Source: Kineococcus endophyticus (GTDB taxonomy: Bacteria > Actinomycetota > Actinomycetes > Actinomycetales > Kineococcaceae). From it: a DNA stretch of 64,000 bases. Each line of letters starts with the position of its first letter. The first letter of the stretch is position 1. A program made the position numbers and the translations under genes. The notes below the pieces were generated by a model. That model was not told the origin of the DNA. It ran no database searches and worked only from the letters and a program-made list of their open reading frames with translations. Of the stretch, positions 34,533 to 43,402 are shown in pieces. Location of the stretch: positions 124,001 through 188,000 of the forward strand of contig NZ_JBFNQN010000009.1 of the NCBI RefSeq assembly GCF_040796495.1, in the 5' to 3' direction.

Positions 34533-35240
34533 GTGCCCGCCACCCCTCGCGACCACCTCGACCGCCACCTCGACGACCTCGACCTCCCGTTGCCCGCTCC
34601 CCCGCCCCGCGGTCCGCTGGCCCGGCGTCGCCGCCGCCTGACCCGGCGCTGGCTGTCGGCCGGGCTGGTCGCGGCCGCCGGCGGCGTCGCCGTGGCCACG
34701 CTGGCGCCACCCGCCCCGGTGCAGGCGCGGGTCCTCGTCGCCGCGCGTGACCTGCCGACCGGCGCGGTCCTCACCGCCGCCGACGTCACACCCCAGGAAC
34801 GGGACGACGCCACCGTGCCCGACGGGACCCTGGGGGCCGCCGCCGTCCTGGGGGCGGTCCTGGCCGCGCCCGTCCGGCGCGGCGAGGTGCTGACCGACGC
34901 GCGCACGACGACGGGCCCCCTGTTGGCGGGGCAGCCGGCGGGGACGGTCGCGACGGGGGTCGAGGTGGGCGACACCGCGCTGCTGCAGAGCCTGGCACCG
35001 GGCGCCCGGGTGGACGTCCTGGCCCGGACGCAGGACCCGGTGTCGGGGGCCGCGACCGGGGCCGAGCGGATCGCCGCCGGGGTCGTGGTGCTGCGGGTCC
35101 CGGCGCCGCCGACCTCCGGCGGGCTGCTCGGCCCGTCCGGGTCGCAGGGTCCTGCGTCGGTGCTGCTCGCCGTCGACCCCGCCACGGCGGCGCGGTTGGC
35201 CGCGGCGGCGGGCCGGACCGTGGTGACGGTGCGGTCGTGA
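34533..35240 (+). CDS. SAF-domain (CpaB/RcpC-like) membrane-anchored protein
   Basis: The 235-residue product has a basic N-terminal cytosolic part and one membrane segment (about residues 42-59, LSAGLVAAAGGVAVATLA). It then has a SAF domain beginning VLVAARDLPTGAVLTAADVT and including VRRGEVLTDA. SAF proteins of this kind resemble CpaB/FlgA, which help pilus or flagellar assembly, but this gene stands alone without pilus genes. It converges on the GGDEF-EAL gene with only two bases between the stop codons. The biochemical role is unknown. Confidence 0.85.
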   Translation: MPATPRDHLDRHLDDLDLPLPAPPPRGPLARRRRRLTRRWLSAGLVAAAGGVAVATLAPPAPVQARVLVAARDLPTGAVLTAADVTPQERDDATVPDGTLGAAAVLGAVLAAPVRRGEVLTDARTTTGPLLAGQPAGTVATGVEVGDTALLQSLAPGARVDVLARTQDPVSGAATGAERIAAGVVVLRVPAPPTSGGLLGPSGSQGPASVLLAVDPATAARLAAAAGRTVVTVRS

Positions 35241-35242
35241 CG

Positions 35243-37300
35243 TCAGTCCAGGCGCGGGGTGGCGCCGGCGTGACGGACGCGCAGCAGGTCCAGGACGGCG
35301 TCGGCCGTCATGGGTCCGCCGACGTGCTCGCCCTGGGCCGTGTGGCACCCGAGCGCGGCCAGCGCCCGCTGCGTGGGCGCGTCGGTGACGCCCTCGGCCA
35401 CGACCCGCAGCCCCAGTTCGCGGGCCATCTGCACGGTGGAGCGCACGATGACCGCCCGGGCCCGGTCGCTGGTCATGCCCGTGACGAAGCTGCGGTCGAT
35501 CTTCAGCTCGTCCACCTCGAGGTCCATGAGGTAGGCCAGCGACGCCTGGCCGGTGCCGTAGTCGTCCACGGCGACCGAGCAGCCGAGCGCCCGCAGCCGG
35601 CGCACCACGGCCCGGGCCCGCGCCGGGTCGGACACGATGCCGGTCTCGGTGATCTCCAGGACGAGGGCGCAGGCGGCGACCGAGTGCCGCCGCAGACCGT
35701 CGGCGACGAGGGCCGGCAGGTCGTGGTCGGTGAGCAGCCGCGCCGAGAGGTTCACCGAGACGCTCGGGGTGAACCCGGCGGCGCTCCAGCGGGCGGCGTC
35801 GGCGAGGGCCTGGTCGAGGACGACCGCGGTCACGCCGGCGATGAGCCCGGACTGCTCGGCGAGCGGGATGAAGCGGTCGGGACCGACGGGGCCGAGCTCG
35901 GGGTGGCGCCAGCGGACGAGGGCCTCGGCCCCCACGACGACGCCGGTGTGCGCGTCCACCTGCGGCTGGTAGCGGACGAACAGCTCGCCGCGCTCGACGG
36001 CCCGGCCCAGGTCACCGAGGAGCCGCAGGCGTTCGATGCTGTTGACGTCGCGGCGTCCGGCGTACGTGCACGCCCGGCCGCGCACCTCCTTGGCCTGGTA
36101 GAGGGCGACGTCCGCGCTGCGCAGCAGCGAGGTGGCGCTGGTGCCGTGCTCCGGGGCGAGCGCCACACCGACGCTGGCGGGCAGCAGCACCTGCAGCTCC
36201 CCGACGCGCATCGGCCGGGACATCTCCTCCACGACCGCGAGCGCCAGTCCCTCGGCCTCGAGGCGGTCGGAGACGAGGAGCCCGAACTCGTCCCCGCCGA
36301 GCCGCGCCACGACGGCGTCGGCCGGGGCCTGCGCGGTGAGCCGGCCCGCGACCTCGCGCAGCAGCGCGTCCCCGACGGGGTGCCCGAGGGTGTCGTTGAC
36401 GTCCTTGAAGTGGTCGAGGTCGACGACGAGCAGGCCCGGACCGAGGTCGGCCCCCTCCCCTCCCCGCAGGGAACGCGCGGTCGCGGCGAGGAACGCGTCG
36501 CGGTTCGGAAGCCCGGTGAGGTCGTCCACGAGCGCCCGCCGCTCGTGCCGGCGGGCGACGGCGGCGCTGACGAGCATCACGGACAGGGGCACGCAGACGA
36601 GCACCAGCAGCCAGGGGCCACCCTCGGCGCTGACGACGACCACGGGCGCCGAGGCGAGGACGGCGAGGGTGAGCAGGAGACCGGAGGCCGAACCGGCCCG
36701 GACCAGGCGCCGTGGGGACCGGACGACGATCCGCCGGGAGGCGTACCGGGCGAGGCCCTGCGCCAGCAGTCCGGCCGCGCCCGCCGCCAGGACCGAGGGC
36801 CAGTCGGTGGGGTCGCGCAACGCGGGCCCGTCGGTGGCGGAGGCCCCCACGAGGAGGTCGAGCACGACGCCGCAGACGAGGACCCCCACGACGGAGGTCG
36901 CGACCGCGACGACAACGGCCTGGGGGCCGGCGCCGCGGCGCACCTGGCGCACCAGTGTGGGGACGGCCCGCACGAGGAGGGCCAGCGCGAGGGGGCCGAG
37001 GGCGACGAGCGCCACGAGGAAGCCCCACGCGAGGGGTGGCGGCTCGCCCCGCCCGCCGGTGCGGCGGGTCACGGGCCGGGACTCGGCCACGAGGACGACG
37101 GCAGCCAGGACGAGGGCGAAGCGCGAGGCGTGCCACGGCGCGGGGGCGGCGAGGGCGGCCAGCACCGCGACGGACAGGACCGCGACCGCGACGACCACGG
37201 CCAGGAGGTCGAGCGCGAAGGGGACGTCAGGACGCGGCCGAGCCGGGCGACGCGTCGGGGAGATGCGGGGTGCGGCGAGGGCAGCCGTCGTGCGCTGCAC
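35243..37300 (-). CDS. GGDEF-EAL cyclic di-GMP signalling membrane protein
   Basis: The 685-residue product has about seven N-terminal membrane segments (residues about 28-245), a GGDEF domain (about 250-410) and an EAL domain (about 425-675). The cyclase site is intact (VVARLGGDEFGLLVSD). The product-inhibition site before it is APAD rather than RxxD, so feedback is probably lost. The phosphodiesterase residues are largely present: GAEALVRWRHP, SVNLSARLL, LEITETGIV, VDDYGTGQASLAYLM, ELKIDRSFV, VVAEGV and TAQGE. The protein could both make and degrade c-di-GMP. GGGAGG before the GTG at 37300 supports the start. c-di-GMP commonly controls exopolysaccharide, which would link it to the first locus; this is inference. 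Confidence 0.93.
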   Translation of the reverse strand: MQRTTAALAAPRISPTRRPARPRPDVPFALDLLAVVVAVAVLSVAVLAALAAPAPWHASRFALVLAAVVLVAESRPVTRRTGGRGEPPPLAWGFLVALVALGPLALALLVRAVPTLVRQVRRGAGPQAVVVAVATSVVGVLVCGVVLDLLVGASATDGPALRDPTDWPSVLAAGAAGLLAQGLARYASRRIVVRSPRRLVRAGSASGLLLTLAVLASAPVVVVSAEGGPWLLVLVCVPLSVMLVSAAVARRHERRALVDDLTGLPNRDAFLAATARSLRGGEGADLGPGLLVVDLDHFKDVNDTLGHPVGDALLREVAGRLTAQAPADAVVARLGGDEFGLLVSDRLEAEGLALAVVEEMSRPMRVGELQVLLPASVGVALAPEHGTSATSLLRSADVALYQAKEVRGRACTYAGRRDVNSIERLRLLGDLGRAVERGELFVRYQPQVDAHTGVVVGAEALVRWRHPELGPVGPDRFIPLAEQSGLIAGVTAVVLDQALADAARWSAAGFTPSVSVNLSARLLTDHDLPALVADGLRRHSVAACALVLEITETGIVSDPARARAVVRRLRALGCSVAVDDYGTGQASLAYLMDLEVDELKIDRSFVTGMTSDRARAVIVRSTVQMARELGLRVVAEGVTDAPTQRALAALGCHTAQGEHVGGPMTADAVLDLLRVRHAGATPRLD

Positions 37301-37466
37301 GTCCCACCTCCCGCCACCGGACCCGGACCCCTCGGACGGACCGGGCCGGCGCCCCCCGTTCGGGGGAGGACAGGCGGCGGTCCGCGCCCATCATGGGGGT
37401 CGAGACGGCGCGGCAGAAGCTCTGAGTGGGCAGGAGACAGGACTTTCGACCGAGAGTCAGTGTGGT

Positions 37467-37476
37467 TGAACGTTCA
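37467..37476. promoter_or_regulatory. Palindrome TGAACGTTCA in the 262-base gap upstream of the GGDEF-EAL gene
   Basis: This is a perfect ten-base palindrome with CGTTCAGTCAG next to it. It resembles TetR-family half sites. The rest of the gap 37301-37562 shows only the ribosome binding site of the minus-strand gene and no further gene. Confidence 0.25.
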
Positions 37477-37562
37477 GTCAGCAACGTGTGTCTCTGTGCA
37501 CATCACGGATGACGGAGCGTGTTCCCGTCGCCACCGATGCGGTACTCGGCCCTGCTCCGCGC

Positions 37563-37721
37563 TCAGTCCCAGTGCGGCGGGCGCTGGGACAGGTACCAGT
37601 CGTCGTCCAGCCCGGTCCCCGAGCGCTCGCCCCACCCCTCGTCGCGGTCGTCGGCGGAGCGCTCGTCCTCCAGCGGGACCTCCCGGTCCTCGTCCCCCGG
37701 CCCGGCCGGTGCCGGGCTCAC
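37563..37721 (-). CDS. 52-residue acidic protein coupled to the helicase-like gene
   Basis: The GTG at 37721 overlaps the stop of the helicase-like gene as GTGA. It encodes 52 residues, mostly Asp, Glu, Arg and Gly, ending in DDDWYLSQRPPHWD. No membrane segment or known domain is visible. The four-base overlap and the aromatic C-terminal motif suggest a real, translationally coupled gene rather than a chance frame. It may be a partner of the helicase-like protein. I do not recognise a characterised family. Confidence 0.6.
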   Translation of the reverse strand: MSPAPAGPGDEDREVPLEDERSADDRDEGWGERSGTGLDDDWYLSQRPPHWD

Positions 37722-40700
37722 GGCGCCTGCACCCCGCTGCGGTCGAGGTCGACGGCCGGTGTCGCGGACGTGCGGCCCCCCTGGGGCAGGACGTGACCCT
37801 TCGGTCCGTCGGAGCCCGCCAGGTCGACCATCCACGGCAGGTCGTGGCCGGTGTCGGCCAGGGCGTCCCGCCACAGGCCCGCGACGCGGTCCGCCTCGGC
37901 GTCGGCGTCGGCGAAGACGTCCGCGGTGAGGACCCGCACGTACCGCCAGCCGCGGCGCTCCAGCTCGGTGGGGCCGTCGACCTCGCGGTCGACGACGTCC
38001 CCGCTCGCCCACGTCGCGTCGTCCAGCTCGACGACCAGGGCCGGGCCGGCGCCCGCCCGGGCCCGGGCGTCCCGGACGACGAGGGCCAGGACGCGGGAGG
38101 TGCCGACCTGGCACTCGACCGGCAACCCGATCCGCCGGCACGCGCTCGCGAGGCGACGCACCACCGCGTCGGCCCCGGGCTGCTCGGGGCGTCCCGACTC
38201 GGCCAGGACCTCCTCGCGCTCCCAGGCGCGCGCGGCGCGGTCCAGCAGCGCGCGTCCGTCCTCCTGGTCCTCGGCGTCCGCGCCGGAGCTCCAGCCGGAG
38301 TCGTCGAGGACGAGGGTGGTGCGCAGCCGGCTGCGGGTCAGGGCCATCCACGCCTCCGCGCGGGCGGTGGCACGGCCCTCGGCGGCCCCGGCCTCTGTTC
38401 CGTCGTCGTGGGCGGCCCCCAGCGCGGGCCCGTTGAGGACGGCGTCGGTGACGACGAGCACGTGGTCGCGGCGCTCCCCGGTCCAGCGGACCGGCGTGCC
38501 GACCAGCAGGGGCTCACGCCCGACGGACAGCGGCAGGCCCCGGTCGAGCGCCTGCCGCCGCACGGTGTCGGCGAGCAGCTCGGCACCCGCGGCGTCGGGC
38601 ACGACGACGCCGAGGGACTCCTCGGGGTGGGCGCTCAGCGCCGCCAGCGCCGTCTCCAGCACGAGGTCGACGAGCGCGTCGGGGCCCCGCCGCGCCCCCG
38701 GCGGGCGGTCCGACGTCCGGGCGGTGGCCCGCCCGTCGTGCCCGGGGCCGGGCAGGGAGACCTGCGCCGCCGGGGCGGGGACACCGGACAGCAGGGTGTC
38801 GTCCAGCAGGGCGTGCTGGCGGTCCAGCCGCAGCGTGGGCAGCACGCCCTCCACGTCGGCGAAGAGGCTGTCCCGCACCGGTCCGGGCACGGTGTGCTCG
38901 TCGCGAGCGGTCGGCAGGTCGGCCGGACCGGGCAGCTGCGGGTCCCCCACGACGAGGACGCGCGCGGCGCGGGACAGCGCCGGCAGCGCCGCCGCCGTCG
39001 TCGTGGACTGGGCCCCGAGCAGCACGAGCAGGTCGGCGTCGTGGACCTCGTCCGCCAGCCGGGCGACCCCCGCCGCCGACAGCGCGGTCACGGGCAGCAG
39101 GTCACCGGGGCGCCCCGACGCCTGGGCCCTCGCGTCGAGGGCGGCACGCACCCGCGCCGCCTGGCGGCCGCGACGGGCCGCGACGGCGAGCTGCAGCTCG
39201 TACCGGGCGGTGCGCAGCGCGGCGGCCTCCCCCGTGCCGACCAGCGGGTCGACCATCGAGACGGCGTCCAGGACACCCGCCCACCAGGCGCGTTCCACCT
39301 CCGAGGGCAGGTGCAGGCTGCCCGGTCCGCCCCAGCGGGCGCGCAGGTCCTCCAGGAGCCCGCCCCAGCCGGCCCCCTCCAGCTCGTCCAGCAGGACCGT
39401 CCGGCGGGGCAGCGGGCCGAGCGCCTCCGCGTCGGCCGCGAGCGCGCGCAGGAGGGCCGACAGCTCCGGCAGCTGGACGTCCTGCAGGGACGTGGCCCCC
39501 AGGTCCGTCCACGAGCGGGGCGGCAGCACGCGAGCGAGGTCGTCGAGCTCGCGCCGCACGGCGGCCACCGCGGCGATGAGCGCGTCGAGGTCGTCGGGGA
39601 CGACGGGTGCGTTGTCCCGCACGGAGACCCGCTGCCACCGCAGGCGCTCGGACCGGGCCTGCTGCAGCCACTCGTGCAGGGTGGCCCAGTCCCCGGCGGA
39701 GACGTCCGGGCGCAGCAGCGCCCGGGCCTCCCGGCGCAGGCGCCAGCGGCGCATCCAGCCCTGCCGCACCTCGTGCTCGCGCCGCCACTGGGGCGTGGCG
39801 GTCGCAGCCGCGACGTCGCCGAGGGACTGCCCGAAGACCTCGGCGCCGAAGCGCCCGATGGTCGTGCGGACCCCGTCGAGGAGCTCGGTGCGCTCGGCGG
39901 CCTCCGCGACCGACGCGGCGCCGCGCAGACCCGCTGCGTCGCAGACGGTCGCGAGCAGCGCGCGCAACGCCGGCAGCCGCTGGCCGATGAGGTTCTCGAC
40001 CCGCTCCAGGGCCTGCTCGGCGGCCTCGGGCGTGCGCAGGTCCGCACCGGCCCAGGGCGTCGTGCCGGGGCCGACGTCGAAGGCCCCGAGGTCGACGGCC
40101 TCGACGAGGCGGTCGGCCCAGCCGGCGACGTCCTCGCGCGCGCAGGACGACAGGTCCGCACCGCGCAGCCGACGGCTCGTCGTCGGCGGCTCGGGGCGCT
40201 CGGCCAGGTCCAGCAGGGCGCGCATGGCCTCGGCCGCGCTCACACCCCACGGCTCGCGGAGGCGGTGCAGCGCGGTCGCGTGCTCCTCGAGGGCGCGGGC
40301 GGGGCCGGCCACGTCGGGGTCGGCGCCGGGGGCGCCGCCGGACGGGGCGGCGGCGTCCAGACGCGCGCGCACCTCCCGGCGGGCCGCGTCGAGCTGGACG
40401 GAGGCGTCGTCGGCCGAGGAGTCCAGGTCGGCCACGAGGTGCAGCAGCAGGCGGCCGAACCCGTTGTCCCGCAGGCGCTCGTCCACGGCGCGACGGTCGG
40501 CGGCGGAGTCGGCGACGAGGAGGACGCGACGGCCCGCGGCGACCTCGGAGGCGATGACGGCCGCGGCGACCTGCGTCGCCCCGGTGCCGGTGGGGGCGTC
40601 CAGCCGGACGTCCTGCCCGGACAGCACGGTCTCCACGACGCGGCGCTGGGCCGGGTCGAGGGCGAGGCCCTCGACCAGGTCCGGACCGGTGTCCGGGGTG

Positions 40701-41506
40701 CTCGCGTCCTCGTCCACCGGCCCGGCCGCGGCCAGGGGCTCGACCGGGCGGCGGCCCGCGACGGCGGCGACGACGCGGTGGTCGCGCACGAGCCCGCCCC
40801 GGCGACGCAGGTCCGCCAGCAGGTCCGCGCCCGGGTCGGCGAAGGTCGCCAGCAGCAGCCGGCGCTCGACCCGCAGCCCGCGCACCCCCGCGAGCTGGCG
40901 GCGCAGCTCGTCCATGGCGGGGTTGGGGTCGAAGCCCCAGTGGGCGCCCACGGCGGCCGCGATGCGGCGCGTGTCGAGGTCGACGCCGAGCTCGGCGCGC
41001 GCGACGCGGACGAGGACGGGGTTCACGATCACCTCGGGGGCCAGCTGGACGACGAAGTCGTCGAGCGCCTCGGTCGCCGGGCTGAGCGTGCAGCGGCGCA
41101 GCAGGACGGGCGTGCGGCGCGGGGCCCGCAGCGCGGCCGGGGCGGCGCCCTCGGCGAGCGTCGCGGCGTCGGGTTCGTCGGCCATGGACCAGCCGGCGAT
41201 GCCGACGGCGACGGCGAGCGACCGGGTCCCGCGCTGGGCCAGGAGGGCTCCGGCGAGGCGGTGGGTGGTGCGGGCCCGGCGGCGGGCCTCGGCGAAGGCC
41301 CCCGCCTCGCGCACGAGGCTGGTCAGGGGCGCGGGACCGCCCGCGAGGAGCTGGGCGAGGCCGGAGGGGTGCGCGGTGGTCAGGTCGAGCACGGCGTCGG
41401 TCCCCACCGGGCAGTCGAGCAGCGCCGACGTGCCCCCGAGGACCTCCGCCTCCGCCCACCAGCGCCGACGCGTCGAGTCGGGACCGGTCGCGGGAGAAGA
41501 CGTCAC
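37718..41506 (-). CDS. Helicase-like protein with degenerate ATPase motifs and nuclease-like C-terminus
   Basis: The 1262-residue product follows the plan of large superfamily-1-like proteins that end in a Vsr/MTES_1575-type endonuclease fold. Residue 300 onward reads LDPAQRRVV, then LDAPTGTGATQVAAAVI where Walker A is expected. The Lys of GKT/GKS is Ala. Motif II, normally DLVxxDEA, reads DADLLVLLGAQSTT near 825 and lacks Asp-Glu. Motif III-like VVGDPQLPGP (about 853) and motif VI-like MALTRSRLRTTLVLDD (about 1058) remain. Residues about 1118-1215 (LPVECQVGTSRVLALVV, ALVVELDDATWAS, ERRGWRYVRVLTADVFADAD) look like the nuclease fold. ATP hydrolysis is doubtful. A TAACCT box seven bases before the GTG suggests a leaderless start. 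A coupled 52-residue gene follows. Confidence 0.85.
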   Translation of the reverse strand: MTSSPATGPDSTRRRWWAEAEVLGGTSALLDCPVGTDAVLDLTTAHPSGLAQLLAGGPAPLTSLVREAGAFAEARRRARTTHRLAGALLAQRGTRSLAVAVGIAGWSMADEPDAATLAEGAAPAALRAPRRTPVLLRRCTLSPATEALDDFVVQLAPEVIVNPVLVRVARAELGVDLDTRRIAAAVGAHWGFDPNPAMDELRRQLAGVRGLRVERRLLLATFADPGADLLADLRRRGGLVRDHRVVAAVAGRRPVEPLAAAGPVDEDASTPDTGPDLVEGLALDPAQRRVVETVLSGQDVRLDAPTGTGATQVAAAVIASEVAAGRRVLLVADSAADRRAVDERLRDNGFGRLLLHLVADLDSSADDASVQLDAARREVRARLDAAAPSGGAPGADPDVAGPARALEEHATALHRLREPWGVSAAEAMRALLDLAERPEPPTTSRRLRGADLSSCAREDVAGWADRLVEAVDLGAFDVGPGTTPWAGADLRTPEAAEQALERVENLIGQRLPALRALLATVCDAAGLRGAASVAEAAERTELLDGVRTTIGRFGAEVFGQSLGDVAAATATPQWRREHEVRQGWMRRWRLRREARALLRPDVSAGDWATLHEWLQQARSERLRWQRVSVRDNAPVVPDDLDALIAAVAAVRRELDDLARVLPPRSWTDLGATSLQDVQLPELSALLRALAADAEALGPLPRRTVLLDELEGAGWGGLLEDLRARWGGPGSLHLPSEVERAWWAGVLDAVSMVDPLVGTGEAAALRTARYELQLAVAARRGRQAARVRAALDARAQASGRPGDLLPVTALSAAGVARLADEVHDADLLVLLGAQSTTTAAALPALSRAARVLVVGDPQLPGPADLPTARDEHTVPGPVRDSLFADVEGVLPTLRLDRQHALLDDTLLSGVPAPAAQVSLPGPGHDGRATARTSDRPPGARRGPDALVDLVLETALAALSAHPEESLGVVVPDAAGAELLADTVRRQALDRGLPLSVGREPLLVGTPVRWTGERRDHVLVVTDAVLNGPALGAAHDDGTEAGAAEGRATARAEAWMALTRSRLRTTLVLDDSGWSSGADAEDQEDGRALLDRAARAWEREEVLAESGRPEQPGADAVVRRLASACRRIGLPVECQVGTSRVLALVVRDARARAGAGPALVVELDDATWASGDVVDREVDGPTELERRGWRYVRVLTADVFADADAEADRVAGLWRDALADTGHDLPWMVDLAGSDGPKGHVLPQGGRTSATPAVDLDRSGVQAP

Positions 41507-41513
41507 GCGGTCA

Positions 41514-41519
41514 AGGTTA
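41514..41519 (-). promoter_or_regulatory. -10 box TAACCT of the helicase-like gene
   Basis: The box lies on the minus strand with a seven-base gap to the GTG at 41506, within the 36-base space after the phosphatase gene. Confidence 0.45.
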
Positions 41520-41542
41520 GGCGTCGCCCGACGTGGATCGGG

Positions 41543-43213
41543 TCAGGTGCGCGGCTCCTGCGTGCCGCCGCGCGCGAGCGGCACCGCGGGTACGGGAGCG
41601 GCCCCTCGCGACAGGGCCACGAGGGTGACGTCGTCGCGGGCCCGGCCGCCGCTGAAGCGCCGGGCGACGTCGAGGGCCTCGTCGACGAGGGCCTGCGGCG
41701 TCAGTTCCGGCAGCCGCCCGAGGGCGTGCAGGACGCCGGCGATCCCCAGCTCGTCCGTGCTGCCCGTCGGCCGAGCCTCGGTCAGCCCGTCGGTGTAGAC
41801 GACGAGGACCGAGCCCGGGGCCAGCGACGTCGTGCGGGTCTGCCAGGCGCCGGGCACGTCGAGGTGCAGCCAGGACAGCAGCGGACCGGTGGCGTCCAGC
41901 TCGGTCACGACGCGCACCCCGCCGGACTCCTCGTCCGTCCGCAGCACGACGGGGGCGGGGTGGCCGGCGTTGGCGTAGGAGACGGTCCCGGAGTCGGGGT
42001 CGACGACCACGACGACGCAGCTGGCGAACCGCTCGGCCTCGTCGGCGAAGACGCGGGCCGCCATGGCCAGGGCCAGGTCGGGTTCGGGCGCCAGGTGCAG
42101 GGCCGCCTCGAGCAGCCGCTTGAGCTGGATGGCGACGATGCCCGCGCGCGCCCCGTGGCCCGAGACGTCGGCGACGACGACGGCGAACCGGCCGTCCGCC
42201 AGCGGCAGCACGTCGTACCAGTCCCCCGCGAGCAGCCCCTCGGCCGGGCGCAGGGCGGCGGCCGAGGACCAGCCCGGGACCACGGGCAGGTCGTGCGCCG
42301 TCAGCTGGTCGCGGACCTCCGCGACCAGGGGCTGCCCCTGCTGCAGGGCCTCGCGCGCCGAGACCGCGTCGGCCAGCTCGTCGAGGATGCGGCGCCGCAT
42401 CGTCTCGGCCGAGGCCGCCACGGCCGCGAGCTCGGGCGGGCCGGGGAGGGTGATGGGCTTCTGCAGCTCCCCGCCCGCCGCCTCGAGCAGCTGCGCCGAG
42501 AGCGACCCGAGGGGATGCAGGACCCACCGGCGGACGAGGTAGAGGACGGCCGGGACGACGAGGAGCGTCATGGCGGCGACGGCCAGCTGGACACTGCGGA
42601 TCCGGTTCCGCTCGGCCTCCAGGCTCAAACGGGACGTCCGCTCGAGCTCCCGGACGCTGTCGTTGAGCGCACCCAGGTCCCGGTAAGTGCTCTGGAGGGC
42701 TTGCACCGAGGGGTCGTCGAGGATCGACCGGCTCAGGCCGGCTGCGTCCAGGTTCGCCTTGAAGGACGCCTGACGGTCTATGACGCTGCGCCAGTAGGCG
42801 GCGTCGTCGAGCACCCGGGTCAGGTCCTGGCGGACCGAGACGTCCAGAGCCTCGTCCCGCGACTGTCCGACGAGCGGAGTGCGGGCGTCCTCGTACTGCT
42901 GCAGCGCCTTCGTCCGGTTGGCCTGCTCGGCCGTCTGCCGCGCCGCGGTCGACGACGTGATGTAGAGCTGGTGGGCTGATTGGGCTTGAACGATGCTGCG
43001 GGAGAACGTGTCGACCTCGCGGGAGAGCTGCGTGCCGGACTCCTCGGGGTCTCGCGCCGAGGTGGTCAGCCAGAGGCTGCTGAGGAGCATGAAGACCGTG
43101 AGGACCAGCACGATCGCGAGGAAAGACACCCCCATGACCGACACGCGGCGCTGGAGGGTCGTGCGCGTCATGAGCCGGTGCCAGGCGCTCGCCACCCCGC
43201 TCAGCTGCCCCAC
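41543..43213 (-). CDS. SpoIIE/PP2C-type protein phosphatase with sensor region
   Basis: The 556-residue product has two membrane segments (about residues 25-48 and 210-230) around a roughly 160-residue helical outer sensor. A HAMP-like stretch starting VLHPLGSLSAQLLEA follows, then a PP2C domain of the RsbU/SpoIIE kind at about 315-535. Metal-binding motifs are intact: LLAGDWYDVLPLADG, VVVADVSGHGARAGIVA, LVVYTDGLTEARP and ARDDVTLVALS. It likely dephosphorylates an anti-sigma-factor antagonist in response to an outside signal. No such partner is in the window. The GTG at 43213 has GAGGGG directly in front; an inner start at the MTRTTLQRR region is possible. Confidence 0.9.
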   Translation of the reverse strand: MGQLSGVASAWHRLMTRTTLQRRVSVMGVSFLAIVLVLTVFMLLSSLWLTTSARDPEESGTQLSREVDTFSRSIVQAQSAHQLYITSSTAARQTAEQANRTKALQQYEDARTPLVGQSRDEALDVSVRQDLTRVLDDAAYWRSVIDRQASFKANLDAAGLSRSILDDPSVQALQSTYRDLGALNDSVRELERTSRLSLEAERNRIRSVQLAVAAMTLLVVPAVLYLVRRWVLHPLGSLSAQLLEAAGGELQKPITLPGPPELAAVAASAETMRRRILDELADAVSAREALQQGQPLVAEVRDQLTAHDLPVVPGWSSAAALRPAEGLLAGDWYDVLPLADGRFAVVVADVSGHGARAGIVAIQLKRLLEAALHLAPEPDLALAMAARVFADEAERFASCVVVVVDPDSGTVSYANAGHPAPVVLRTDEESGGVRVVTELDATGPLLSWLHLDVPGAWQTRTTSLAPGSVLVVYTDGLTEARPTGSTDELGIAGVLHALGRLPELTPQALVDEALDVARRFSGGRARDDVTLVALSRGAAPVPAVPLARGGTQEPRT

Positions 43214-43402
43214 CCCCTCGCGCGCATCCGCCGGCGTGGATCACCGGTCGGTCGGCACACACCTTGTCATCCCCGGTCCCGCCGGGTCACCCACCCGTCC
43301 CACGCGCACGCCGCGCAGATCGTTCCCGGCAGGCGCATCGGCAGGTCGGTCGGCGGCTGCCTCGGCGGGCGGCACCGCGGGTGACGCGGTAGGGGTGGTC
43401 GG

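Follow-up and report, generated by a model that had tools for sequence, protein, structure and literature searches.

According to published reports, the helicase and nuclease domains of RecC are both inactivated and serve in the handling of DNA (PMC1185551), the inactivated helicase domain of AddB reads Chi (PMC4824097), and every isolate of Pseudomonas aeruginosa carries a core DUF4011 gene at the right flank of a defence hotspot (PMC10250203). Here we describe a gene of Kineococcus endophyticus, of the order Actinomycetales, whose product is related to superfamily 1 (SF1) helicases joined to a nuclease and has lost both of its ATPase motifs. The gene lies in a stretch of 64,000 nucleotides (contig NZ_JBFNQN010000009.1 of assembly GCF_040796495.1, positions 124,001 to 188,000), called the window below, and all positions are counted within it. 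In most of the order's bacteria that we examined, a disarmed copy of this kind persists, as a rule at one and the same position in the chromosome, suggesting a so far undescribed role that needs no catalysis. Genomes (G), loci (L) and families (f) are cited by number where they must be told apart.

Both ATPase motifs are lost in the window protein

The gene occupies 37718-41506 on the minus strand, starts with GTG and encodes 1,262 residues. Open reading frames, Pfam, NCBIfam, alignment and substitution rates were used to classify it as an inactivated protein of the DUF4011/SF1/MTES_1575 type. Sequence and alignment place its degenerate Walker A motif, PTGTGATQ, at residues 305-312 (40571-40594, minus strand), with A310 in the position of the catalytic lysine. 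Motif II has become LLVLLGAQS (residues 826-834; 39005-39031, minus strand), preceded by an invariant D825. A preliminary description of this DNA had given the same coordinates, strand, length and motif strings, including the motif VI-like ALTRSR (residues 1055-1060; 38327-38344, minus strand), and had claimed that both ATPase motifs were gone. Sequence and alignment confirm all of this. An intact GK[ST] or DE motif elsewhere in the protein would have spoken against that claim; in a scan of the whole sequence, we found no GK[ST], no GxxxxGK and no other credible DE motif. The sole DE[ASH] string is RDEHTV at residue 869, and the protein contains a single lysine, K1236.

Could the Walker A change be a sequencing error or an oddity of this strain? 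All 12 genomes of the GTDB family of Kineococcus (f1) carry the gene and all 12 read GTGATQ, which rules this out. Among the same 12 genomes, motif II DE is absent from every copy that covers the motif. Within f1, GTGATQVA is identical in all seven rows aligned, and fewer than 1% of eight-residue segments are equally conserved. A scan of named genomes yielded a single locus, that of Kineococcus sp. TRM81007 (L002), which is 56% identical to the window protein in its best segment. Motif III, VVGDPQLPGP (residues 852-861; 38924-38953, minus strand), had been described as kept. That holds for GD, which most of the family retains, but not for the Gln of the active form GDxxQLPP (Q858): none of the 52 inactive orthologues shows it in the alignment, and the residue preceding LP varies among Q, H, D and A within Kineococcus.

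Two further regions were defined by alignment. The DUF4011-like N-terminal region covers residues 10-130 (41117-41479, minus strand) and contains LDLTxAHPSGLAxLLAG. A conserved basic segment, WRREHEVRQGWMRRWRLRREARALLRP, spans residues 574-600 (39707-39787, minus strand); in the nine rows displayed, it is present in active and inactive orthologues and not in the one paralogue.

The gene is distributed across the order at a conserved locus

A search with the N-terminal 367 residues gave matches in 58 of 59 order genomes, representing 35 of 36 genera, and the sole miss was a genome 62% complete. A nine-row N-terminal profile (E up to 1e-15) matched 193 of 198 genomes of the order, and 186 of 188 when completeness was at least 90% and contamination at most 5%. 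This profile also matches paralogues. Perhaps presence was inflated by them? Eight doubtful genomes, seven with weak or odd matches plus G040, were rechecked by comparing family with paralogue, and all eight hold the orthologue, which answers the worry; the other 185 matching genomes were not all checked in this way. In G040, the best profile match is a 2,106-residue paralogue, and the orthologue is a 200-residue piece. The orthologue was matched in 39 of 40 f17 genomes and is retained in genomes of 0.8 Mb (G061, locus L100) and 0.9 Mb (G348, L230). The L100 protein is rich in lysine (6.2%) and has lost its P-loop wholly. Among 148 genomes sampled from the class, those scoring above 250 bits without belonging to the order were ten of f38, one of f25 and one of f45; most of the other class matches listed are confined to the P-loop region and may represent different helicases.

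Of the 59 fetched loci (L048-L106), 48 have at least one downstream landmark among MscL, a SAF-domain protein, penicillin amidase, a GNAT acetyltransferase, an NTP-transferase (GalU-like) and MoeA. These identities come from Pfam, except that the SAF probe itself has no Pfam match at E 1e-5. Of the 11 loci lacking a landmark, seven reach the end of their contig on that side (L055, L056, L058, L059, L083, L086 and L089). As a control, we looked for the landmarks at seven paralogue loci and found none. Outside the order, all eight f38 loci have a landmark. The gene is an order-wide orthologue that behaves like a core gene passed on vertically.

Active orthologues share the locus with inactive ones

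Five orthologues (L048, L049, L050, L057 and L137) read GTGKSQ at Walker A and DEASQ at motif II, and have the nuclease pattern [IV]D[LF]...E-x-DG. Four of these active copies, L048 and L049 of f5 and L050 and L057 of f17, sit at the same landmark locus as the inactive ones. The fifth, L137 (G109, f45), shows none of the landmarks; it gives the sole strong f45 match in the class sample, is intact at Walker A, motif II and the nuclease D and E, and may be mobile or serve in defence.

Across the order sample, 4 of 57 orthologues have the Walker lysine and 53 lack it; the count combines 4 of 54 aligned rows with three f1 genomes (L012, L020 and L021, all GTGATQ) and omits G064, without a match, and G040, with its short piece. 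Motif II DE is present in 4 of the 52 rows readable there. The lysine has been replaced by A (16), V (11), G (7), Q, T and S (3 each), P and L (2 each), I, H or R. In several families GTGxTQ persists, the lysine having given way to A, Q, G or R; others are without the whole P-loop (for example PKGTAE, VSDTAD, SSGSSA and GADVAG), and in some, motif II still has two acidic residues, DD or ED. In f38 (L139-L146), outside the order, all eight aligned copies read GTGRTQ or GSGRTQ, their motif II has ED or DD, and the SAF landmark lies downstream; to judge from the alignment, this lysine-to-arginine change is a separate inactivation.

Since intact orthologues stand at the same locus in f5 and f17, the ancestor was probably an active DUF4011-SF1-MTES_1575 helicase-nuclease. 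All seven outgroup paralogue loci read GTGKSQ (truncated L149 was omitted from the full-length tree), which makes loss the likely direction; counts of changes alone cannot tell gain from loss. A 74-row full-length tree, built with the Walker A and motif II columns removed, requires three changes of lysine state and places 53 rows, all without the lysine and Kineococcus among them, in one supported clade. An N-terminal tree that includes fragments requires five. A tree centred on f17 requires eight lysine changes, seven DE changes and seven nuclease-pair changes, with six independent lysine pairs on well-supported branches. The trees group most loci by family, although f3, f8 and f17 do not come out cleanly in all of them, and they are weakened by open inner branches, long branches that meet and unlike composition in many rows.

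Family f17 (L185-L219 with L050, L057 and L062) captures the change at several stages. Lysine is kept in 25 of 38 aligned rows and DE in 23 of the 37 that cover motif II; a 39th row, the split gene of G234, reads GTGKSQ. Among the 37, 22 keep both lysine and DE, 19 are intact at all three sites and eight are changed at lysine, DE and nuclease pair alike. DE was lost in 12 of 13 rows lacking the lysine versus 2 of 24 bearing it (Fisher p 6e-7, uncorrected for kinship). Independent pairs point in the same direction for joint loss of lysine and DE, without significance (3-4 informative pairs, p 0.125-0.25).

Lysine depletion under pressure from guanine-plus-cytosine (GC) content was also considered as the sole cause. 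We rejected it: the Walker lysine was lost in proteins containing up to 6.2% lysine and kept at a content of 0.52%. Median lysine contents of 1.29% in 25 active rows and 0.80% in 74 rows lacking the Walker lysine do allow a contribution from depletion.

Retained sites and substitution rates

Which parts of the protein have been kept? We defined an active set of 25 rows with both lysine and DE, in which 196 sites are invariant in all rows or all but one, and an inactive set of 52 orthologues of other families. Not one of the 52 has K310, E831 or Q858; S833 survives in 4% and D830 in 40%. Certain sites beyond the named motifs are equally lost: N27, P130, D483, W656 and R660 all stand at 0%. Median retention of the active-invariant sites is 0.71, with the insert (residues 361-770) best retained at 0.73 and motifs II/III worst at 0.56. 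Retention is lower at the five named motif sites than at the others (Mann-Whitney p 3e-4), a result partly built in by choosing the active set on K310, D830 and E831; S833 and Q858 played no part in that choice. At the other extreme, 22 of the 196 sites are kept in at least 95% of the inactive copies that have a residue there, including H46, P47, G102, P133, W485, R587, L614, D825, D1162 and W1187 as well as positions 49, 66, 93, 162 and 568. P47, G102, W485, R587, L614, G713, D825 and W1187 are invariant in 53 of 53 inactive orthologues, and R66, G93 and D1162 are kept in 52 of 53.

Rates of nonsynonymous (dN) and synonymous (dS) substitution by NG86 were 0.075 and 0.463 for the window gene against L101, and 0.138 and 0.510 against L103. 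It had been argued earlier that the long open frame speaks against decay. The conclusion is backed by the fixed sites and by dN well below dS; the frame itself is weak evidence, since antisense frames also stay open in GC-rich DNA. Two such frames lie opposite real genes, at 37851-41798 (plus strand, 1,315 residues) and 35237-42979 (plus strand, 2,580 residues). We rejected an antisense or shadow frame as the true gene: it is the minus-strand frame that carries the family homology and alignment, with dN well below dS. At lower GC content, orthologue frames remain open at 56-60% GC; one of 1,205 codons is open at 55.7% GC, where base shuffles average 44 stops. Much of the protein outside the catalytic sites is still under purifying selection, and it looks to be a retained pseudoenzyme rather than the product of a decaying gene; for Kineococcus there is strong evidence against simple decay.

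Profile, structure and nuclease comparisons

The kinship claimed earlier, to SF1 helicases with a Vsr/MTES_1575 domain, is upheld by weak matches in the window protein and by matches above cut-off in its active orthologues. MTES_1575 (PF18741) matches residues 1119-1208 of the window protein (E 9.2e-8), with 32.5 bits falling below the Pfam cut-off of 38.2, and weak DEAD, AAA_11 and AAA_30 matches around residues 283-343 also fall below their cut-offs. DUF4011 (PF13195, cut-off 22.2), likewise named for a profile search in the preliminary description, has no Pfam match in the window protein at E up to 1 and is found in the active orthologues. All three active orthologues scanned (L048, L050 and L137) exceed the Pfam cut-offs for DUF4011, AAA_11, AAA_12 and MTES_1575; for L048 and L050, both locus and tree establish the orthology. 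L142 also passes for DUF4011; L079 and L097 have no match to that domain. The MTES_1575 cut-off is passed by six of six orthologues scanned.

Among defence profiles, the anti-phage ProA model (NCBIfam NF058533) matches the window protein with 108.2 bits (E 2.4e-31; curated cut-off 1500), PADLOC PDC-S37 with E 8.9e-27, and Hhe, an anti-phage protein with DUF4011 (NF042953; the name appears in PMC12278908), with 27.4 bits (curated cut-off 2000). Active orthologues reach 801-869 bits for ProA (L050 801.4, L137 868.6) and 519-644 bits for Hhe (L050 554), still below these cut-offs, and 820-916 bits for PDC-S37; the ProA and PDC-S37 matches extend along most of their length. No solved structure related to the window protein was found at E up to 1. 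The closest solved sequences to active orthologue L050 are SMUBP-2, Upf1 and Dna2 (best E 1.5e-13).

By Pfam and alignment, the MTES_1575/Vsr-like nuclease domain covers residues from about 1108 to 1215 (37862-38185, minus strand). Its motif Asp has become A1141, while E1160 and D1162 are retained. By analogy with PD-(D/E)xK enzymes, the D1141 and E1160 columns are presumably catalytic; both residues are present in 7 of 52 inactive orthologues. The window nuclease is probably inactive as well. An earlier proposal, that the protein is a nuclease regulated by nucleotide binding, is not supported: the change from D1141 to alanine weakens it, as do the few inactive orthologues with both D and E and the several families without a P-loop.

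Neighbouring genes

Downstream of the window gene lie a GGDEF-EAL gene (35243-37300, minus strand; Pfam and NCBIfam) and, beyond it, the convergent SAF-domain gene that serves as syntenic landmark (34533-35240, plus strand), recognised by comparison of neighbours. Immediately upstream is a HAMP-SpoIIE phosphatase gene (41543-43213, minus strand). A 581-residue frame at 41517-43262 (minus strand) was considered as the upstream gene and rejected as a shadow of this SpoIIE gene. In genome G009, a 1,596-residue open frame (L104:7394-12181, plus strand) matches the shadow frame; here the open frame probably just runs on, as opposed to marking a fusion. We found no operon partner: those neighbours that recur from family to family are convergent or distal genes without an apparent link to this one, and the upstream homology search, having used the shadow frame, carries little weight.

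Discussion

The reading we put first, while granting that it may equally well prove wrong, is that of a pseudoenzyme working without catalysis as a nucleic-acid-binding subunit or scaffold, descended from an active helicase-nuclease and inherited vertically at the mscL/SAF/galU-like locus. The preliminary description had already raised a scaffold role; here it leads. The ancestor probably combined a DUF4011-like N-terminus, an SF1 motor of the Upf1/SMUBP2 type that contained a large insert, and, at the C-terminus, a nuclease with the Vsr fold (MTES_1575). In the trees, the Walker lysine disappeared early on the line from which most sampled families stem, Kineococcus included, and again independently elsewhere. 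The motif II acids went together with it, and in Kineococcus the nuclease Asp too. The old helicase track and the basic insert would now hold DNA or RNA and hand it over to an active partner, a role that we would place in genome maintenance, in the manner of RecC or AddB. A bolder form of this proposal is that the gene encodes an order-wide, probably important, non-catalytic genome-maintenance factor, in which nature would have invented the RecC principle a second time, starting from a Upf1-like SF1 motor and a Vsr-type nuclease. This we offer tentatively, its chances being short of even.

Several observations weigh against a retained scaffold. The window protein keeps 117 of the 196 active-invariant sites, and although 29 of 39 survive in the insert, motor domain 2A retains 18 of 42. 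Its last 47 residues, after residue 1215, evolve near neutrality (dN and dS of 0.407 and 0.723 in one comparison, 0.496 and 0.515 in the other). Several families evolve fast, with long branches in the trees, and in G335 (L229/L234; G335:C1:758282-759660), one of the eight rechecked genomes, a frame break or sequencing error divides the orthologue between two frames. AlphaFold2, run on the window protein with L002 as a two-row alignment, gave a mean pLDDT of 33.6; with a prediction of such low confidence, retention of the fold rests on homology. As to partners, no RecB/AddA-like gene appeared among the conserved neighbours identified, which were not searched for it by name, and apart from a match of 35 positions, no further ProA-like protein was found in the same Kineococcus genome.

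Some of these points would also suit slow decay, in which a once-useful enzyme erodes under relaxed selection in many lineages. So would the repeated losses, the gradient of erosion in f17 (22 of 37 rows keep lysine and DE, and 19 of these the nuclease pair as well) and the ease with which frames stay open by chance in GC-rich DNA. Yet dN lies well below dS in Kineococcus, W485, R587, L614, G713, D825 and W1187 are invariant in every inactive orthologue, frames stay open at moderate GC content, and 186 of 188 good genomes were matched. Slow decay is already disfavoured, and we think it quite improbable. Perhaps, instead, replacement residues have built an unorthodox active site that still hydrolyses ATP or cuts DNA? 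The near-fixation of D1162 (52 of 53 inactive orthologues) and D825 (53 of 53), and the DD or ED that some families keep at motif II, would fit such a site. However, the window protein has no lysine near its loop, K1236 being the only one, and motif II in Kineococcus is uncharged; we regard catalysis of this kind as highly improbable.

Another reading gives the gene a defence origin: a former anti-phage helicase-nuclease of the ProA/PDC-S37/Hhe type would have been disarmed and domesticated to sense phage or DNA damage without catalysis of its own. ProA (108 bits for the window protein, 801-869 bits for active orthologues), PDC-S37 and Hhe are indeed the top profiles, and the active f45 copy, L137, lacks the locus landmarks. 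Nevertheless, the scores fall well short of the curated cut-offs for ProA and Hhe, and the gene is near-universal, largely vertical, syntenic and kept in genomes of 0.8-0.9 Mb, which is atypical of a defence gene. We consider this origin rather unlikely. The earlier suggestion of an undescribed defence or repair system stands in part: defence is possible by descent, while the gene behaves as a vertical core gene and not as a defence-island gene. The lysine-less P-loop might also act as a nucleotide-binding switch, still binding ATP and changing shape without hydrolysis, as the invariance of GTGATQVA in f1 and the GTGxTQ kept by several families would allow. Against this, other families have lost the whole loop, so that a switch could not be the family-wide function, and the motif II acids are absent from the window protein. 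Moreover, loss of the Walker lysine usually cripples nucleotide binding. A switch seems to us unlikely.

Why does a disarmed gene matter? It was matched in 186 of 188 good genomes of the order, yet the Walker lysine is absent from 53 of 57 orthologues, which points to a core function. Loss of the ATPase motifs is common to most of the order and not a local oddity, and the active orthologues at the same locus lay beyond the single-sequence view of the preliminary description. With active and dead orthologues at one locus, and eight lysine changes on the f17 tree, the family offers a natural experiment on the change from enzyme to scaffold. If the RecC-like proposal is true, the steps by which a pseudoenzyme is born could be traced through the intact orthologues at the same locus and the several independent inactivations in f17. 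There is also a practical side. Annotation could easily mis-name family members as helicases or ATPases, and ProA/Hhe-like anti-phage matches at the mscL/SAF locus are mostly not active helicase-nucleases.

Comparison with known systems

Literature searches, at the level of the titles and the beginnings of abstracts listed, found no description of this actinobacterial pseudo-helicase family, a weak absence given that most subscription papers and bioRxiv lay outside their coverage. Of the described systems, ProA and PDC-S37 give the best-scoring profiles for the active orthologues of the window gene. ProA differs in that its model has 1,903 positions, whereas the frames here run to about 1,200-1,700 residues, and in that the window family is core by distribution and locus and has lost its ATPase residues. 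Hhe is more distant, as its 2000-bit cut-off lies far above both the active orthologues (519-644 bits) and the window protein (27 bits). With the MTES_1575 restriction endonuclease (REase) proteins (PF18741; PMC3710099), the window protein has a C-terminal Vsr-fold domain in common. It differs from them in having lost D1141, in scoring below the Pfam cut-off and in having no HEPN or transglutaminase domain reported by Pfam. The P. aeruginosa gene provides a precedent for a core DUF4011 gene, in another phylum and likened by description rather than by sequence or motifs. SMUBP-2, Upf1 and Dna2 are the nearest solved relatives of L050, although the window protein itself matches none of them at E up to 1.

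This kinship also separates the family from RecC and AddB. It belongs to another SF1 branch, with SMUBP-2, Upf1 and Dna2 nearest to L050, and its nuclease is of the MTES_1575/Vsr type, so that on present evidence the window protein stands outside the RecC/AddB family. What it has in common with both is inactivated SF1 helicase domains, a likeness from which a functional parallel may, hypothetically, be drawn.

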